Virus record (IMG/VR): IMGVR_UViG_3300042888_000509
Location: 1-30,757 of that record
Reading direction: 5' to 3' (one strand)
DNA from: a virus
DNA length: 30,757 nt
Numbering within the stretch: position 1 is the first letter of the stretch; each line of letters starts with the position of its first letter. The position numbers and the translations under genes are program-made. The notes beneath the pieces were generated by a model. It did not search any database and was not told the origin of the DNA. It saw only the letters and a list, made by a program, of their open reading frames with translations. Positions 5,853-20,980 of the stretch are shown here, piece by piece.

Positions 5853-6016
5853 ATAGGAAAAACGTAAGATGGCGACTAAAAGATGGGCAATGGATGTTTG
5901 AGATACATCCTAAGATTTGGGGATCAGAGGAGATGTTTGACTTGTATTACCCAAGCTACGAGTACGTTAAGTTTAATGACAAAGGAAGCAATCCTGATAA
6001 AACTAAGATAAAATGA
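5801..6016 (+). CDS. Hypothetical protein (71 aa)
   Basis: Not recognised. A small polar protein with many aromatic residues (WRLKDGQWMFEIHPKIWG, FDLYYPSYEYVKF), probably a compact beta fold. The start is fixed by the conserved leader; the end overlaps the methyltransferase start by 4 bases (ATGA), so the two are probably translated together. No function assigned. Confidence 0.6.
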   Translation: MHQKKTNSITEYIQGNLDRKNVRWRLKDGQWMFEIHPKIWGSEEMFDLYYPSYEYVKFNDKGSNPDKTKIK

Positions 6017-7038
6017 AGCCATTTATATATAACATGGATTATGTAAATGAACAATCTGCTAAAAATTTATTTAATGTTGTATCATTATTTGCTGGAGGTG
6101 GTGGATCATCAACGGGATATCGTTTAGCGGGCGGAAAGGTTTTGGCAATCAATGAGTTTATTGAATCCGCCCAGGAAACATATAATGAAAATTATCCGGA
6201 AACCTATATTTTTAAACAAGACATCCGCGATTTAACCGGGGAAATGATTTTGGAAAAAATACAAATGAAAAAAGGTGAATTGGATATTTTAGATGGATCG
6301 CCACCATGTGCAAGTTTTTCTATTGCAGGAGCAAAGGATAAAATGTGGGGTAAAATAAAAAAATATTCAGATACAGAACAAAGAACAGATGATTTGTTTT
6401 TTGAATTTGGAAGGATATTAAATGAAATTCAACCTAAAGTATTTATTTGCGAAAATGTAGCTGGACTTGTTACTGGTGCATCAGCAAAATTATTAGGTAG
6501 TGAACAATACAGCATATTTGGAGATGAAGAAAATACGATATATCATTGTTTAGTAAATTGTGGTTACTCAGTAAGATATAAAGTTATAAATGCAAAAAAC
6601 TATGGTGTACCACAAAATAGAGATAGAACAATATTTATTGGGGTTCGTAATGATATAAAAGCAAATATCACATATCCTAAAAAATTTGATGAATTGGTTA
6701 CTATTGGAGAATCATTAAATGATATTGAATATATACAAATGAATAGAAAAGCATTTGGTGAAGAAGAGGCAAGAAAGGTTGAAAAACATAATGTTTGTTT
6801 TACAATTACAGCGGACGGATTAGGTGCAACCAGAAGATATAAAGTATTTAGAAAAAATAATGAAACCTCAAGGTTGACAATTGATGAAGTAAAAATATTA
6901 AGTTCATTTCCAACCGATTTTAAATTATCTGGTTCATATCGTAAGCAATGGGAAAGAATAGGCAGAGCAGTACCACCTTTAATGATGAAAGCAATTGCTG
7001 ATCATGTTTATAAGAATATACTTAAAAATATAAATTAA
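6013..7038 (+). CDS. DNA cytosine-5 methyltransferase
   Basis: This 341-residue protein has all main m5C methyltransferase motifs in order. They are FAGGGGSSTGY (26-36, SAM binding), GSPPCASFS (95-103, catalytic C99), ENV (147-149), QNRDRTIFIGVR (201-212) and GRAVPP (317-322). The target-recognition region between motifs VIII and X is short, so the site is probably short. No cognate restriction enzyme is evident; the next gene is a VRR-NUC nuclease more typical of replication. The likely role is to protect phage DNA from host restriction or to mark it. The gene is clearly AT-richer, with more GAA/AGA codons, than the helicase before and primase after it, suggesting separate acquisition. Confidence 0.92.
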   Translation: MKPFIYNMDYVNEQSAKNLFNVVSLFAGGGGSSTGYRLAGGKVLAINEFIESAQETYNENYPETYIFKQDIRDLTGEMILEKIQMKKGELDILDGSPPCASFSIAGAKDKMWGKIKKYSDTEQRTDDLFFEFGRILNEIQPKVFICENVAGLVTGASAKLLGSEQYSIFGDEENTIYHCLVNCGYSVRYKVINAKNYGVPQNRDRTIFIGVRNDIKANITYPKKFDELVTIGESLNDIEYIQMNRKAFGEEEARKVEKHNVCFTITADGLGATRRYKVFRKNNETSRLTIDEVKILSSFPTDFKLSGSYRKQWERIGRAVPPLMMKAIADHVYKNILKNIN

Positions 7039-7313: not shown

Positions 7314-9812
7314 ATGAACTACTTACAACTCGGCATCAATACTATTGCTGTAAATGAAAATAAGCAGGCTATTTTCCCTTGGAAGGTCTACCAAGAGGAA
7401 ATGATAAAGGAAGAAGAATTAGCTCGTCAAATGGCAGATAATAGGGCAAAAGGAGTAGCCATTATTTGTGGGGCGGTGAGTGGCAATCTTGAGGTCATTG
7501 ATATAGATACAAAGTATGAGACTTATGACCTATGGGATGCTATTATGTCAGCTATACCACATGAGTTGTACAAGAAATTGCACATCGTAAAAACAAGAAG
7601 TAATGGCAAACACCTCATCTATAAATGCGAGGCGATTGAAAAGAATCAGAAACTCGCACAGCGACTACCGACATTGGAAGAGGCAAAAAATAACCCTTCC
7701 ATTAAATCTTATTGCATTATTGAGACGCGGGGAGAAGGTGGATATGTTGTTGCACCGCCTACACAAGGCTACCTCGTGGAACAAGAAGGGATAAATGTGA
7801 TCTCGCTTGATGAGCGCGAGGTGTTGTTTGAGATTATGCGCTCCTTCAACGAAATCTTTGAGGAGGCGATAATTGAAGCACACCAGAGGCCGTCAACCAA
7901 GGATTATGGGGTGTCTCCTTTTGATGACTATAATAGGAGAGGTGATGTGGTTGAGTTGATGGGTAGGAACGGATGGAGAGTTGTGAAAGAGAATAGTGAA
8001 AGGATTTACTTTCTTAGACCAGGCTCAAAGGCTGAGCATAGTGGATCATGGAACAAAGGACTTGGACTTTTTAGTGTATTTTCTGTGAACACACCTTTTA
8101 CTGTGCAGAAAGGTTACAAATTGGCTGCTGTGTTTGCTATTTTGGAATGTGATGGTGATTTTAAGTTGGCAGCAAGGCGGTTGCTTGATATGGGATTCGG
8201 AGAAAAAAAAACATCCTTCGGTGACAGAGTAGAAAGGGAGTTGTTTTCCAAGAAGAATGATGGGGCAAGTAAGGATGATATGGTGACACTTCTTGTAAAG
8301 AAGCACAATAAAAGTTTGGATGATGCCAAAGTAATGGTTGATGAACTTGATGCAAGGTGGGGTGATGAGATTTGTACCTTTTGGGATGTTGATGATAAAG
8401 GAAAGGCAAGTGTTAATCGGTATAAATTGCAAGTGTTTCTTACTACTATTGGGGGTTTTAGGCTATACTTCTATGATAGTGGGTCAACCATTTACAGACT
8501 CGTTAGGGTCAAGGATGGATTTGTTGAGGAGGCATCAACTGAGCAGATTAAAAGATTTATCAAGGATTATGTTGATAAATTGCCTGACTCGTTTGATGGT
8601 GGGGTCACACCTCAAGACTTACTTGAGTTGATTTACAAAGGAGCGACTGTGCTGTTCTCGGATGCTTTTTTTGAGTTCTTTGAGAGAGCAGAGCTATCGT
8701 TTTTGAAGGATACTAAGAATGAAGGGTATTTCCCGTTTAAGAATGGGGTTGTTGTGGTTGGAAAGGACAAGATTGAGTTGAAAAGCTATGGAGAGTTGGG
8801 AAAAGTTGTTTGGAAATCGCAAGTAATTGACCATTTTATTGTGATAGATGGGGATATTGAGTTAGAGAAGATAGAATATTTTAGGTTTATAGAGAAGATT
8901 TCTGATAGTGACAAGGATAGGTATATATATGCTTTAGGGTTGATCGGATACCTACTGCACAACTATAAAGACCCATCAAGGCCGTTTTCAGTGATCTTGG
9001 CAGAAGAGACTGAGAAGGAAGCCAATGGAGGAGGCACTGGAAAGGGGATATTTGTGAAGGCATTGGGGTATTTGCTCAATATTGTTCGGGTTGATGGTAA
9101 GAACTTCAAATTTGACAAGTCATTTGCATTTCAAAGGGTTGACCTGGATACAAGGATACTGGCAATTGAGGATACGCGGAGGAACGTTGATTTTGAGGGG
9201 TTTTATAGCATCATAACAGAAGGCATCACAGTAGAGAAGAAGAACAAGGATGAGCTTTTTATACCTTATTCCGACTCACCAAAGGTTATGTTCACCACGA
9301 ACTACACCATACCTAACTCTGGTAACCACGCTAAAAGGAGGCAGAAAGTATTGGAGTTTAGCGGATATTTCGGGCCTAAGCGGACACCAGAAGATGAGTT
9401 TGGACATAAGCTTTTTGATGATTGGGATAAAGATGAGTGGAATAGGTTTTATAATTTGATGTTTGATTGCGTTCAAGGCTACCTTGAGTTTGGAGTATTG
9501 GAGGTGGCATCGTCTGAGAAAATTAAAAGGAAGCAAATCAGGGTGCAGTTTGGGGAGGAGTTTTTAGAGTATTTTTTAGGGATTGTGGAGGAGGAAGTTG
9601 GATGGATAAAGTTAGAACAATTATATAATGATTTTATGACAATGAGTGGGTTTGATAAGAAGGATTATTCCGTAAAAAGGTTCACTAAGGGAATTGAAGA
9701 ATCGTGTACCATTTTAAATATCGCGTACCTAAATAAGAGAGAAAAAAGTGCTGGAGGAAAAAAGATGTATAATTTTAATAGCTCAAAAGTTACACATGAT
9801 GATTTATTTTAA
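7314..9812 (+). CDS. Primase-polymerase / SF3 helicase fusion
   Basis: A replication protein of 832 residues. The N-terminal ~200 residues are a primase-polymerase (AEP) domain: VIDID (D63, D65) supplies the metal-binding acids, followed by KTRSNGKHLIYKC and ETRGEGGYVVAPP. The middle (about 200-500) is a linker typical of D5/P4-type primases. The C-terminal part is an SF3 helicase with Walker A GGGTGKG at 572-578, a downstream IEDTRR element in the Walker B region, MFTTNY (sensor) around residue 660, and the basic pair in AKRRQK. It would unwind the origin and prime synthesis. It lies directly upstream of the iteron region, as expected for an initiator helicase. No DNA polymerase gene is seen, so the phage probably uses the host polymerase. 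Confidence 0.9.
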   Translation: MNYLQLGINTIAVNENKQAIFPWKVYQEEMIKEEELARQMADNRAKGVAIICGAVSGNLEVIDIDTKYETYDLWDAIMSAIPHELYKKLHIVKTRSNGKHLIYKCEAIEKNQKLAQRLPTLEEAKNNPSIKSYCIIETRGEGGYVVAPPTQGYLVEQEGINVISLDEREVLFEIMRSFNEIFEEAIIEAHQRPSTKDYGVSPFDDYNRRGDVVELMGRNGWRVVKENSERIYFLRPGSKAEHSGSWNKGLGLFSVFSVNTPFTVQKGYKLAAVFAILECDGDFKLAARRLLDMGFGEKKTSFGDRVERELFSKKNDGASKDDMVTLLVKKHNKSLDDAKVMVDELDARWGDEICTFWDVDDKGKASVNRYKLQVFLTTIGGFRLYFYDSGSTIYRLVRVKDGFVEEASTEQIKRFIKDYVDKLPDSFDGGVTPQDLLELIYKGATVLFSDAFFEFFERAELSFLKDTKNEGYFPFKNGVVVVGKDKIELKSYGELGKVVWKSQVIDHFIVIDGDIELEKIEYFRFIEKISDSDKDRYIYALGLIGYLLHNYKDPSRPFSVILAEETEKEANGGGTGKGIFVKALGYLLNIVRVDGKNFKFDKSFAFQRVDLDTRILAIEDTRRNVDFEGFYSIITEGITVEKKNKDELFIPYSDSPKVMFTTNYTIPNSGNHAKRRQKVLEFSGYFGPKRTPEDEFGHKLFDDWDKDEWNRFYNLMFDCVQGYLEFGVLEVASSEKIKRKQIRVQFGEEFLEYFLGIVEEEVGWIKLEQLYNDFMTMSGFDKKDYSVKRFTKGIEESCTILNIAYLNKREKSAGGKKMYNFNSSKVTHDDLF

Positions 9813-9827
9813 TATGACATATAAATT

Positions 9828-9858
9828 GGGTACGTCATTTTTTGTCGGGAACGTCATT
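9828..9858 (+). repeat. Origin half-iterons ACGTCATT x2
   Basis: GGGTACGTCATT (9828-9839) and GGGAACGTCATT (9847-9858) are two near-identical 12-base direct repeats, 19 bases apart start to start. They match the left half of the longer iterons downstream. Confidence 0.6.
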
Positions 9859-9885
9859 GGTACGCGATTTTTACACGATTTTGGG
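9859..9885 (+). repeat. Iteron copy, forward
   Basis: Begins GGTACGCGATTTTTACACG and continues ATTTTGGG. It shares TACACGATTTT with the copy at 9911 and CGCGAT with the inverted copy at 10001. Confidence 0.65.
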
Positions 9886-9910
9886 TAGCTAAGTGGTTGA
9901 GAATCAACGC

Positions 9911-9935
9911 GGATACGTCATTTACACGATTTTTT
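9911..9935 (+). repeat. Iteron copy, forward
   Basis: Begins GGATACGTCATTTACACGAT and continues TTTTT. It combines the ACGTCATT half-site of the first repeats with the TACACGATTTT half of the previous copy. Confidence 0.65.
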
Positions 9936-10000
9936 CTATTTTTTAGGGTATATCTGTTTTTTTTTTGGATTCTTATATATATAGAGAAAGAAGGAAAGAT

Positions 10001-10025
10001 GAAAATATCGTGTAATCGCGTATCC
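10001..10025 (-). repeat. Iteron copy, inverted
   Basis: Read on the minus strand it begins GGATACGCGATTACACGATA and ends TTTTC, nearly the same as the two forward iterons. It lies on the far side of the AT-rich stretch, giving the origin an inverted-repeat frame. Confidence 0.65.
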
Positions 10026-10170
10026 TGCTATTTTGGTTAGGGATTTTTGATAGGGGTTTTTGGTGGGGTTTTTTGCTACCAGGGTAAACCTCGGATATAC
10101 ATAGTTACATGGTTACTTAATAAGATATATTTTCATTGATAAAGAAAGGTCAATAAAGATAAAAGAAAGG

Positions 10171-10191
10171 GTACTTGGCAATACAAGGTAC
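10171..10191. promoter_or_regulatory. Imperfect inverted repeat upstream of the DnaA-like gene
   Basis: GTACTTG (10171-10177) and CAAGGTAC (10184-10191) are near-complementary around a 6-base spacer. The location just before the leader of the following gene would suit an operator or a small hairpin. Confidence 0.35.
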
Positions 10192-10200
10192 TATATTATA

Positions 10201-10218
10201 CACTTTAAATAAAAATGG
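10201..10218 (+). promoter_or_regulatory. Recurrent CACTTTAAA leader, fourth copy
   Basis: CACTTTAAATAAAAATGG precedes ATG 10219, with TATACACT overlapping its start at 10197-10204. An out-of-frame ATG at 10215 reaches a stop after four codons, so 10219 is the working start. Confidence 0.45.
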
Positions 10219-10623
10219 ATGTTAACTAAAGAGAATTTATTGTCAGTTGTTAGCTTTGTGAGTGGTATACCAGAGAGTGAGATTATGAGCCAAAATAGGG
10301 CTCGTGGTTACGTTCTTTGCCGTCATGCTTACTATTTCATTGCAAGGGAAAAAATGGGTCTTAAATTGGTTGATATTGGCTCATTGTTTGGTGCTGACCA
10401 TACTACTGTGATTCATGGCATAACAAAGGTGAGAGATATGCTTTCAATTGGTGATGAGATAACAAAGCAGTTCATTGATCAGGTTAATCTTTGTATCGCA
10501 GCGAAGTATCTAATTCCTACAAGACTAATCGTATCAATTCCAAGTGAGATTGATAGTGAGGAGGTGATAAGGTATCTAAAAGATTTAGGATGTGAAATAG
10601 AAAAGATAAATTATAACATATAA
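10219..10623 (+). CDS. Stand-alone DnaA domain IV-like DNA-binding protein
   Basis: Residues 5-70 match the C-terminal DNA-binding domain of the bacterial initiator DnaA, including SQNRARGYVLCRHAYYF, REKMGLKLVDIGSLFG and the signature DHTTVIH at 60-66, which contacts the DnaA box. The AAA+ ATPase of DnaA is absent, so it can bind DNA but not form an ATP-driven filament. A further ~64 residues (71-134) follow that are not part of the family, ending in a small alpha/beta segment. With the primase-helicase and iterons immediately upstream, it probably marks the phage origin or recruits or excludes host DnaA. It could also act as a transcription factor. It is followed by a strong terminator. Confidence 0.88.
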   Translation: MLTKENLLSVVSFVSGIPESEIMSQNRARGYVLCRHAYYFIAREKMGLKLVDIGSLFGADHTTVIHGITKVRDMLSIGDEITKQFIDQVNLCIAAKYLIPTRLIVSIPSEIDSEEVIRYLKDLGCEIEKINYNI

Positions 10624-10649
10624 AAAAAGAGGGTTGAGACCCTCTTTTT
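10624..10649 (+). terminator. Strong Rho-independent terminator
   Basis: AAAAAGAGGGT (10624-10634) pairs perfectly with ACCCTCTTTTT (10639-10649) around TGAG. The A- and T-tracts on both sides allow it to work in both directions, which suits the convergent minus-strand genes that follow. Confidence 0.9.
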
Positions 10650-17628: not shown

Positions 17629-18798
17629 ATGGAAGATTTAAAAAAGTTTGAAGCTGCTCTTGATGCCAAATTGGCTGAGCAGAAGGCTGAAGTAGCCGTA
17701 AACACAGAGAAGGCTGCAAAAGCATTTGAGTCAAGGATTGAGCAAATCAATGAGCAATTGGTTAAGGCTAACAAGACTGCTGATGAAGCAAGGAACGAAG
17801 TTCTTGAGGCTAAAGCATCTTTTGGCAAATTGCAAGCTAAAGAAAGTGCTAAAGTAGCAACTTCTTATGGTGAGCATATTATGAACATTAAGAACGAGAT
17901 TGGTAATGCAATTGAGAAAGGTTGGAACGACATCAAAGCTGCATCTCGTAGCAATGGTAAAGGTTTCAACTACGAAATGGATGCCAAAGCCGTTCAAACA
18001 ATGACCATCGGTACTAACCTGACTGGTTCTGTTTATACATCTTATGTTGACAACGCTTATTTGAGGTCTTATGTAAACCCACATCTGCGTTCTGTATTCA
18101 ACATCATCCCTGTTTCTACCGGATCAGTTTCTTTCCCAAGGGGTAACACTCCAGTAGGTGAAGGTTCTTTCGGTAAGCAAACTGAAGGTTCTGCAAAGCC
18201 TCAAGTTGATTATGATGTAACAGTTGTAAATACTGCTCTGTCTTTCATCGCTGGTTATGCTAAAGTAAGCCGTCAGATGATTGATGATTTGCCATTCTTG
18301 CAAGCTTATCTTCAGCAGTCTTTGATTGAAGATTTCCAAAAAGCAGAAGATACTTATTATCTTAATGCCATTGCATCTTCTGCAACCGCAGGTTCTTCTT
18401 CTGGTGCTAACACTGCTGAGAAGTTCATTGATTACGTTGCTCAGTTGGGTGCTTTGAACTGGACTCCAAACCTTTCTTTAATCACTCATGCTGGTTGGGC
18501 ATCTTTGCTTAAAACCAAGCCTGCTGATTACTCAGTACCTGGTGGAATGGTTATTGACCAAAATGGTAATGTTAGAATCGTTGGTATCCCTGTTATCCCT
18601 CATTCTTTGGTTACAGCTTCAAGGATGTATGTAATGGATACTACCAAGTTTGCCATTGCTCAACAATCTGGTCTGAATGTACGTTCTACTGAGTTTGACC
18701 AAGATGACTTCATCAAGAATCTTTTGACGTTCCGCTGCGAAGCTCGTTGTGAACTTCTTCAGTTCCAACCTACTGCTGCCGTATATGGTGCGATCTAA
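17629..18798 (+). CDS. Major capsid protein, HK97 fold
   Basis: 389 residues. Residues 1-95 are a charged coiled-coil (AEVAVNTEKAAKAFESRIEQ and neighbours), the delta/scaffolding domain that the preceding protease removes. The mature capsid part follows, with an N-arm around MTIGTNLTGSVYTS, an E-loop-like SVSFPRGNTPVGEGSFGKQT and a P-domain spine KVSRQMIDDLPFLQAYLQQS. The end FRCEARCELLQFQPTAAVYG is the A-domain strand typical of this family. Codon choice differs from its neighbours (more pyrimidine-ending codons such as TCT, AAC and ATC), as expected for the most highly expressed gene. A terminator follows directly. Confidence 0.95.
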   Translation: MEDLKKFEAALDAKLAEQKAEVAVNTEKAAKAFESRIEQINEQLVKANKTADEARNEVLEAKASFGKLQAKESAKVATSYGEHIMNIKNEIGNAIEKGWNDIKAASRSNGKGFNYEMDAKAVQTMTIGTNLTGSVYTSYVDNAYLRSYVNPHLRSVFNIIPVSTGSVSFPRGNTPVGEGSFGKQTEGSAKPQVDYDVTVVNTALSFIAGYAKVSRQMIDDLPFLQAYLQQSLIEDFQKAEDTYYLNAIASSATAGSSSGANTAEKFIDYVAQLGALNWTPNLSLITHAGWASLLKTKPADYSVPGGMVIDQNGNVRIVGIPVIPHSLVTASRMYVMDTTKFAIAQQSGLNVRSTEFDQDDFIKNLLTFRCEARCELLQFQPTAAVYGAI

Positions 18799-18869: not shown

Positions 18870-19427
18870 ATGGAAGTAAAAATACTTACTACTAAGAAAT
18901 CAAAAATGCTTGATAGTGCATTGAAAGAGATGCATAGGAACTCATTTAGTGGTGAAGTTGTTTATGCAGTTCCACATGAAAACCCAAAGACATCATTCAA
19001 TCTATCAATGCAGAAAATAATGAATAGTACGAATGGTGTACTATTGCTCTTTGAAGATGATGTTGAGATAAGGGATTTCAGTCATTTTAATGAGGCTATA
19101 TCTCAGCTACCAACTGATTGGGAGTTGTGCTACCTTGGGGCGAATCTGGTTGATCATATTGAGAAGTATAGTGAGAACCTTTACAAGACATTTGGGGCAT
19201 GGACTACTCACGCAGTTATTTACAACAACCCAAAGGAATTGTGCAAAGCATATACTGATACAACGATAATGTTTGATGATTGGTTAAAGACCAATATACA
19301 CCCAAGAGGCAATACTTATATAATCAAACCAATGATAGCTTGGCAAAAGCCACATCAAAGTGATTTGTGGAATGGTTATGTAGACTATACAAGAATATTT
19401 GATGACTCAGCAGCTAAATTGATATAA
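18870..19427 (+). CDS. Glycosyltransferase, GT25-like
   Basis: 185 residues. It starts with the Rossmann-like strand MEVKILTTKKSKMLDSAL. VLLLFEDDVEI at 57-67 contains the EDD acidic motif of GT25 (LPS-type) transferases that holds the sugar nucleotide and metal. WELCYLGANL and the later AVIYNNP match the family order. It would transfer a hexose to an acceptor in the cytoplasm. It is the first of three consecutive sugar-related genes lying between capsid and connector genes, which points to glycosylation of a virion protein. No membrane segment or signal is present. The acceptor and sugar are unknown. Confidence 0.75.
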   Translation: MEVKILTTKKSKMLDSALKEMHRNSFSGEVVYAVPHENPKTSFNLSMQKIMNSTNGVLLLFEDDVEIRDFSHFNEAISQLPTDWELCYLGANLVDHIEKYSENLYKTFGAWTTHAVIYNNPKELCKAYTDTTIMFDDWLKTNIHPRGNTYIIKPMIAWQKPHQSDLWNGYVDYTRIFDDSAAKLI

Positions 19428-20012
19428 ATGAAAAATTATGTGATAATTGGCGCAATGGATGGCATAAGCCATGACAATATATTTGATAGACTTAAAGATG
19501 AGACTGACTATCAAGCATATTTTATTGAGCCAATACCACACTACTTTAATAAGTTAAAAGAAAACGTAAAGCAACTATCAAACGCAAAGGCATCAAACTT
19601 TTTTATATCAGATACTGTTGATAGTGTTGAGATGGCTTATGTAAAGCCTGAGTGGATTTCAAAGTACTCATCATTTTTAGATGGATGCAGTTCACTTGTT
19701 GAGAATGGTGAGCCATTAAATAGGTACTTAAAAGAACTACCCAAAAGCATAATTGAGACAATTAGAATTGGTTCCATAACATTTGACCAATACTGCAATT
19801 GGTTTGATATAAAAGATATACATTATTTGCAGATAGATACAGAGGGATGTGATGAGAGGATATTAAATACGATTGATTTAGATAAGTATAAGGTAAAAGA
19901 ACTTAAATTTGAGAATCACTATATAAGTGATAATTTTTATACTGATTTACTAATAAAATATCCACATTACAAAGGTGAAATAGTTGGTGCGGATATAATA
20001 CTAAAATTATGA
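19428..20012 (+). CDS. FkbM-family methyltransferase
   Basis: 194 residues. The SAM-binding start is VIIGAMDGISHD (5-16), a variant of the family's DVGANxGxxxD, followed by YFIEPIPHYF at 31-40 and LQIDTEGCDERIL at 134-146, which matches the conserved DxEG of FkbM enzymes. The family O-methylates sugars and polyketides. Placed between two glycosyltransferases it probably methylates the added sugar, capping the glycan. It begins at the base after the GT25 stop and overlaps the next start by 4 bases, so the three genes form one transcriptional unit. FkbM proteins are uncommon inside head operons. Confidence 0.8.
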   Translation: MKNYVIIGAMDGISHDNIFDRLKDETDYQAYFIEPIPHYFNKLKENVKQLSNAKASNFFISDTVDSVEMAYVKPEWISKYSSFLDGCSSLVENGEPLNRYLKELPKSIIETIRIGSITFDQYCNWFDIKDIHYLQIDTEGCDERILNTIDLDKYKVKELKFENHYISDNFYTDLLIKYPHYKGEIVGADIILKL

Positions 20013-20980
20013 ATATAGTTGCTTCTGCGCATCTTTACCCTCCAGAGCATAACTGTGGCGCGGAATGGATGCTACACTTTATGCTCAAAGACCTTCAATC
20101 AAAGGGTCACAATGTTAGAGTTCTTTTACATGATGCGAATAAGTACAAGATAAGGGACAATTATGTCTTTGATGGAATTGATGTATTTCCTCCAAACCCA
20201 AATGTGGTTGAGAACTTAATGAGGTGGAGTCACGCTGTGTTTACTCATTTAGACTATACAAGGTGGACAATTCATGCAGCTAAACTTTACAAAAAGCCTG
20301 TTTTTCATCTTATTCACAATAGTCATCCCTACCCAGAGATTATTGATGCGGAGAAAAAACAGCACATCATTTACAATTCTTTGTGGTTAAAAGAACTTTT
20401 GAACTATAATTTTAGTAATTTTATAGTGACTCCGCCAGTAGACTACAATTACTATGACTTGGAGAATGAACCTGAGAAGTCTGAATATATCACTTTAATA
20501 AACTTAAACGAGAACAAGGGCGGTAAGATATTTGGGGAGATTGCAAGAGCAATTCCACACAAGTCATTTTTAGGTGTTTTAGGGTCATACGATGAGCAGA
20601 TAACTCCAAACCTACCAAATGTGACTTATGTGCCTAATTCGCCTAATATTAAGCAATGGTACGCAAAGACAAGAATACTTCTCATGCCATCAAAGTATGA
20701 GAGTTGGGGAAGGACAGCAACAGAGGCGATGTGTAGTGGGATTCCGGTAATTTGTACTGATACACCTGGGTTGAAGGAGAATTGTGACAAGGCAGGTGTT
20801 TATATTAAAGATAGGAATAATGTCAAAGATTGGGTTGAAGCTATTACAAAGTTGGATGACAAAAAAGCCTATTCATGGGCCTCAAGAAAAGCAAAAGCGA
20901 GATCAAGAGAGTTTGACACAAGAAAAACGCTTGATGAGTTTGAAACCTGGTTCAGAGAAAGTGTTAATAAATATAATTAA
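20009..20980 (+). CDS. Glycosyltransferase, GT4-type (GT-B fold)
   Basis: 323 residues in two Rossmann-like halves. The N-terminal half opens MNIVASAHLYPPEHNCGAEW, the usual acceptor-side glycine/PP loop; the C-terminal half has ESWGRTATEAMCSGIPVICT with the E-x7-E pair E231 and E239 that binds the nucleotide sugar. This is a retaining GT4-type enzyme. The gene is complete, without signal peptide. It is coupled to the methyltransferase by a 4-base overlap and is followed after 2 bases by the connector gene, so it is part of the structural operon. The sugar donor cannot be predicted. Confidence 0.87.
   Translation: MNIVASAHLYPPEHNCGAEWMLHFMLKDLQSKGHNVRVLLHDANKYKIRDNYVFDGIDVFPPNPNVVENLMRWSHAVFTHLDYTRWTIHAAKLYKKPVFHLIHNSHPYPEIIDAEKKQHIIYNSLWLKELLNYNFSNFIVTPPVDYNYYDLENEPEKSEYITLINLNENKGGKIFGEIARAIPHKSFLGVLGSYDEQITPNLPNVTYVPNSPNIKQWYAKTRILLMPSKYESWGRTATEAMCSGIPVICTDTPGLKENCDKAGVYIKDRNNVKDWVEAITKLDDKKAYSWASRKAKARSREFDTRKTLDEFETWFRESVNKYN

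Follow-up and report, generated by a model that had tools for sequence, protein, structure and literature searches.

The window, i.e., the whole stretch of 30,757 nucleotides that was analyzed, very probably derives from a phage of Bacteroidota-type bacteria, with the 406-bp gap at 9813-10218 as its replication origin. We consider it likely that this gap is the iteron origin of a self-loading initiator of the SaPI/P4 type, with an IHF-like bend site between the iteron blocks and a DnaA domain IV protein (DnaA-IV) as a separate companion. The origin is conserved and of a known type, and it is the tightly linked companion gene that is unusual; no report of this arrangement was found among the papers searched.

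A primase-helicase gene immediately precedes the gap

The proposed initiator gene contains the following features:

7314-9812, + strand: primase-helicase, 832 aa, proposed initiator (Pfam, AlphaFold2 model, PDB matches)
9603-9779, + strand: winged-helix codons, residues 764-822, proposed iteron-binding domain (AlphaFold2 prediction, covariation)
9735-9779, + strand: wing hairpin codons KREKSAGGKKMYNFN, residues 808-822 (covariation with the iterons)

The protein comprises an N-terminal Prim-Pol domain, a central SF3/D5-type helicase and a C-terminal winged helix. Pfam matches were obtained to Prim-Pol and DUF5906 (the latter at 33 bits, with a cut-off of 27.6), and GGTGKG was invariant among 31 relatives. 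Using an AlphaFold2 model (31 sequences; mean pLDDT 81.7, pTM 0.51), the best PDB match was the SaPI5 primase-helicase (7ola/7om0), which was ranked top by both Foldseek and VIA-align. SaPI5 Rep aligned to the helicase model with a Z of 18.6 and an rmsd of 3.6 over 306 residues, and the prim-pol of pRN1 ORF904 aligned to the N-terminal Prim-Pol domain with a Z of 16.3. The winged helix was predicted as three helices with a hairpin end (pLDDT about 80-89), with helical elements at residues 767-778 and 787-800 and strands at 804-810 and 816-822; structural alignments to 7om0 and others, using the whole helicase model as query, reached residues 816-822. These data support the claim of an earlier note on this DNA that an SF3 primase-helicase lies beside an iteron origin.

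The match to NCBIfam TIGR01613 (P4-family primase_Cterm) was weak, at 13.5 bits against a cut-off of 108.7, and no informative NCBIfam family was found for the helicase C-terminus; in its manner of working the protein resembles P4 alpha, yet it falls outside the curated P4 family. A scan of genome contigs for relatives returned only three, all of them remote and from Bacteroidetes or Fermentimonas MAGs. Two genes before the helicase there is a C-5 cytosine DNA methyltransferase (6013-7038; PF00145, E 1.2e-52); CpG occurs in some iterons and is absent from others. Elsewhere in the window, three consecutive ORFs at 18870-20980, between the genes at 17629-18798 and 20983, were assigned by eye as putative glycosyltransferase, FkbM-like methyltransferase and glycosyltransferase genes.

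Iteron half-sites flank an AT-rich stretch

The sites in and next to the gap are as follows:

9701-9708, - strand: iteron-like half-site TACACGAT within the helicase gene (pattern search; variably retained in relatives)
9720-9727, - strand: iteron-like half-site TACGCGAT within the helicase gene (pattern search; variably retained in relatives)
9831-9838, + strand: half-site 1, TACGTCAT (pattern search; position kept in relatives)
9850-9857, + strand: half-site 2, AACGTCAT (pattern search)
9861-9868, + strand: half-site 3, TACGCGAT (pattern search)
9872-9879, + strand: half-site 4, TACACGAT, 11 bp past site 3 (pattern search)
9890-9902, - strand: IHF-like site TCTCAACCACTTA, 8 of 9 consensus positions (consensus match)
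9897-9907: conserved near-palindrome TTGANAATCAA, overlapping the IHF-like site (relatives)
9914-9921, + strand: half-site 5, TACGTCAT (pattern search)
9923-9930, + strand: half-site 6, TACACGAT, 9 bp past site 5 (pattern search)
9931-10000, unstranded: AT-rich stretch (T-rich strand), proposed unwinding element (sequence; retained between opposed iterons in relatives)
10007-10014, - strand: inverted half-site TACACGAT (pattern search)
10015-10022, - strand: inverted half-site TACGCGAT (pattern search)

The half-site pattern [AT]AC[AG](CG|TC)AT was found eight times in the gap, six times in direct and twice in inverted orientation, whereas the count over 2000 dinucleotide shuffles averaged 0.11 and never exceeded 2. 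Given that the pattern was defined after these sites had been seen, the main evidence for them is the conservation of their position and layout in relatives. In an unbiased repeat count, the top words were G/T-rich and the iterons were not singled out by count alone. The forward, half-site and inverted copies that the earlier note had placed here proved correct in position, and the AT-rich stretch that it described between direct and inverted copies is present.

The same note had regarded the iteron core as close to a DnaA box, which was not borne out. One half-site has two mismatches to the box TTATNCACA and the others 3-5; over ten sites the mean was 3.8 mismatches, compared with 3.57 at random nearby positions. 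As the sites are no closer to the box than random positions, we rejected the iterons as degenerate DnaA boxes. An exact DnaA box was not found in 9813-10218. GC skew, a suggested check on the origin, was positive nearly throughout the window and showed no turn at the gap. The half-sites at 9701-9727 sit in winged-helix codons and, in relatives, shift partly in step with the gap iterons.

The layout recurs in relatives with lineage-specific iterons

A search for the same gene-iteron arrangement recovered this layout 3' of the primase-helicase gene of dozens of related phages; their lineages span helicase identities from 44% up to 100%, with a further one at 31%. Read from the left, the layout comprises three to four direct iterons, a central near-palindrome TTGATNATCAA, two direct iterons about 9 bp apart, a T-rich/AT-rich stretch, usually a purine-rich run and, in most lineages, inverted iterons. 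The parts that recur are the direct iterons, a central TTGATNATCAA-like element, the 9-bp-spaced pair and the AT-rich stretch, while the spelling of the repeats is lineage-specific and very divergent (TACGCGAT, AACATCAT, GTAGTCCAT, GTACCACTT, GTAACCGAT). By lineage, the iteron spellings are:

Window: TACRCGAT/TACGTCAT
L004, L008, L018, L039, L042, L046: AACATCAT
L044, L064, L068: GTACGCGAT
L134 group: GTACACGAT
L053 group: TGTAGTCCA/TGTAGCGCA
L056: TGTACCACT
L066: GTTCCACTT
L081, L180: GTAACCGAT

Iteron sets flank the AT-rich region on both sides in the window and in most lineages; no inverted (right-side) iterons were detected for the lineages of L053, L056 and L062. With WATCAANNNNTTR as the IHF consensus (PMC5742627), 13 of 27 representatives showed a match at all 9 positions, where 0.6 were expected, and 26 showed one at 8 or more (10.2 expected), mostly at the central element. 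We infer that this element is an IHF site, of which the window copy carries one mismatch, although the consensus may not be that of the host group. It was also considered as a DnaA-IV site and rejected, since the element is present in lineages without DnaA-IV.

Several variants of the region were observed. Within the first 260 nt past the helicase gene of L082 and L083, which have no DnaA-IV gene, the origin is apparently flipped relative to the helicase. In L111 (Fermentimonas MAG, contig JAQUIZ010000204.1), ACAACC-type repeats surrounding a TTGATATTCA element come after the gene of the remote helicase (27% identity). G-rich GGGTTTTTGG-type units (10031-10075) separate the inverted iterons from the DnaA-IV gene and are also present in L053, L059, L084 and L088; several relatives carry long variable arrays of these units at this place.

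A DnaA domain IV gene is tightly linked to the gap

The region downstream of the iterons contains:

10196-10204, + strand: DnaA-box-like TTATACACT, one mismatch, just 5' of the DnaA-IV gene, probably chance
10219-10623, + strand: stand-alone DnaA domain IV protein, 134 aa (PF08299, AlphaFold2, Foldseek)
10624-10649, + strand: strong intrinsic terminator with a perfect 11-bp stem, closing the DnaA-IV gene

PF08299 (E 1.6e-14, residues 6-71 of 134) was the sole domain in the 134-aa protein, in which no AAA+ ATPase domain was detected. The AlphaFold2 model (pLDDT 90) has a predicted domain IV fold with about 40 extra residues C-terminal to it, and the top Foldseek matches were 3pvp and 1j1v, i.e., the DnaA DNA-binding domain on a DnaA box. 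The protein is thus, as first read, a DnaA domain without AAA+. Residues aligned to E. coli DnaA R399, R407, D433, H434 and T435 are kept in DnaA-IV proteins, and DnaA mutants at R399 and T435 lose box binding (PMC5742627). These box-reading residues are nearly invariant across DnaA-IV proteins while the iterons change completely.

The DnaA-IV gene was present at most 900 nt after the origin in 21/21 distinct loci with at least 85% helicase identity, and within 900 nt in 40/41 loci at 60-84%, 4/12 at 40-59% and 0/7 below 40%. This tight linkage suggests a role for DnaA-IV in this module. Olleya phage Harreka_1 and Pelagibacter phage Skadi-3 also carry stand-alone DnaA-IV genes, and the annotation shows no primase-helicase within 4-5 kb of these. 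The protein may act at host boxes, in autoregulation, or with a new specificity at the phage origin.

The box-like site TTATACACT of the window clade is not conserved across relatives. The idea of a conserved DnaA box ahead of this gene was rejected, as an exact box was seen there only in L044 and L045 (36 bp upstream). Nor are boxes enriched in the phage loci: 485 kb held 35 exact copies, with about 41 expected by a composition estimate. In close relatives a conserved element, GGTACTnnGCAATnCAAGGTACT, lies 5' of the gene (10170-10195) and is a possible operator or promoter.

The winged helix is the most likely reader of the iterons

Iteron distance correlated with that of the wing hairpin (Mantel r 0.945; partial 0.91, p 0.0002) in 16 close relatives, a sample with about three hairpin spellings and hence few independent events. 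The wing and the iterons are neighbours on the DNA, and linkage was only partly controlled; once the wing was controlled, the C-terminal tail codons, which lie closer to the iterons, gave a partial of about 0.04. The DnaA-IV helix-turn-helix (HTH) gave a partial of -0.10 (p 0.8) with winged helix and helicase body controlled. Embedded coding half-sites were rejected as the cause of the wing-iteron covariation, since the embedded segment had a partial of 0.014 and the hairpin signal stayed. When all families are compared, the recognition helix likewise varies together with the iterons, but this is confounded with lineage.

Individual genomes point the same way. The mosaic L008 combines helicase residues 1-700 like those of the window phage and an L007-like DnaA-IV with iterons of the L004 type, AACATCAT, and its wing hairpin is the L004-type KRDKGSGGKKL, compared with KREKSAGGKKM in the window phage. 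L004 and L039 have iterons and winged helix in common, with DnaA-IV identities of 73% (HTH) and 56% (C-terminal), whereas the window phage and L002 have nearly identical DnaA-IV proteins and different iterons. Iterons are also kept in L081-L083 (records of 64, 57 and 47 kb), which gave no PF08299 match, and in L075, L178 and L180, in which several kb separate the helicase from a DnaA-IV gene located 5' of it. Taken together, the comparisons indicate that the iterons are most likely read by the C-terminal winged helix of the helicase and not by the small DnaA-like protein, and that the beta-hairpin wing seems to set iteron specificity. The covariation, the iteron phages with an absent or distant DnaA-IV gene and the DnaA-box comparison all argue against the DnaA-like protein as reader.

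Proposed mechanism and alternative explanations

The repeats, their conserved layout, the predicted folds and the covariation were observed; we infer iteron binding, bending, melting, helicase loading and use as an origin, in a scheme that would run as follows. The gap would be an origin of the SaPI/P4-alpha kind, immediately 3' of its initiator gene, and the primase-helicase would bind the iterons through its C-terminal winged helix, with specificity set by the wing. The conserved site that separates the 9-bp-spaced pair from the iterons upstream of it would be bent by a protein of the IHF/HU type, which would bring both iteron blocks together. Helicase seated to the left on direct iterons and to the right on the inverted pair would face inward and melt the AT-rich stretch, then load and use its own Prim-Pol domain for priming. 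DnaA-IV would have no part in reading the iterons. With its AT-rich stretch enclosed by opposed iteron sets, the gap fits the picture for SaPI Rep, apparently one of two hexamers.

The earlier note had proposed a split initiator, with DnaA-IV for site recognition at the iterons and the SF3 primase-helicase for opening. Its iteron origin and primase-helicase are supported, but its iteron reader is not. The DnaA-IV gene adjoins the origin in 61/62 distinct loci with at least 60% helicase identity and encodes a DNA-binding fold; against this, the iterons do not track DnaA-IV sequence, persist where the gene is missing or remote, and are wholly changed and not DnaA-box-like while the box-reading residues hardly vary, which leaves a split initiator very improbable. 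The gap might instead be a regulatory, partition or packaging site, as repeats flanking AT-rich DNA are also known at partition and operator sites, and the gap holds a promoter-like sequence for the DnaA-IV gene, although not above shuffles. We find this improbable for a gap directly 3' of a self-loading-type initiator gene, which covaries with the winged helix of that initiator and has an AT-rich stretch between opposed iteron sets and an IHF-like site. Nor do we give much credence to a pRN1-like stem-loop, in which the inverted copies would matter by folding and not by duplex binding. The window can form a hairpin with 9911-9936 and 10001-10025 as its arms and 64 nt of AT-rich DNA as its loop (fold z -2.3), and in the archaeal plasmid pRN1 the origin, located 3' of orf904, has a stem and a loop of 58 nt (PMC4234260). 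Arm pairing, however, is weak in AACATCAT lineages and was not found in L053, L056 and L062, while single half-sites are kept; duplex iterons are thus the better reading.

A further explanation is about the second protein and does not conflict with the iteron origin of a self-loading initiator. A box-reading domain without an ATPase could occupy host sites, and DnaA-IV might therefore be a decoy or competitor at host DnaA boxes (TTATCCACA), occupying oriC or the dnaA promoter and slowing host initiation. Interference with host DnaA was also the alternative raised in the earlier note, and for a protein with no target found in the phage it is the most attractive idea. This role, which is possible if on balance doubtful, fits the conserved box-reading residues better than iteron reading does, and is consistent with the stand-alone DnaA-IV genes of phages with no helicase neighbour and with exact boxes in phage loci near composition expectation. 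The tight linkage to the origin suggests instead a part in phage replication, and the exact box upstream of the gene in L044 and L045 would fit autoregulation. That the stand-alone DnaA-IV of this phage group silences or delays host initiation via host DnaA boxes, with the phage initiating independently of DnaA, strikes us as rather unlikely.

Implications and comparison with known systems

Since repeat spelling and wing hairpin co-vary among these phages, their initiator-origin pairs form a natural series on which swaps can test the specificity of a self-loading primase-helicase. For annotation, the lesson is that a DnaA-like gene may lie beside an origin without encoding the reader of that origin.

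The alpha protein of phage P4, with its ori1, likewise unites primase, SF3 helicase and a C-terminal winged-helix origin-binding domain in one protein that works with iterons. Part of this domain make-up with iterons is described in PMC4234260, and the P4 primase, unlike the one here, is of the Toprim type (PMC4234260). The 134-aa protein resembles bacterial DnaA domain IV in its fold and box-reading residues, but differs from DnaA in having neither AAA+ nor domain I and in its roughly 40 extra C-terminal residues; unlike bacterial DnaA systems, the phage origin has no DnaA boxes. The pRN1 ORF904 protein shares Prim-Pol, SF3 helicase and winged helix, as well as an origin 3' of its gene, although that origin is described as a stem-loop without iterons. 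In SaPI Rep helicases, the C-terminal domain reads iterons directly 3' of their own gene, apparently as two hexamers (PMC7581432). SaPI Rep and SCCmec Cch2 resemble the present protein as self-loading helicases of the D5/SF3 type, and SaPI5 Rep (7ola/7om0) also has a primase domain. Unlike those systems, the one described here belongs to a phage genome and not an island, carries an N-terminal AEP Prim-Pol of the pRN1 type, and has an IHF-like element between its iteron blocks and a DnaA-IV gene beyond the origin.
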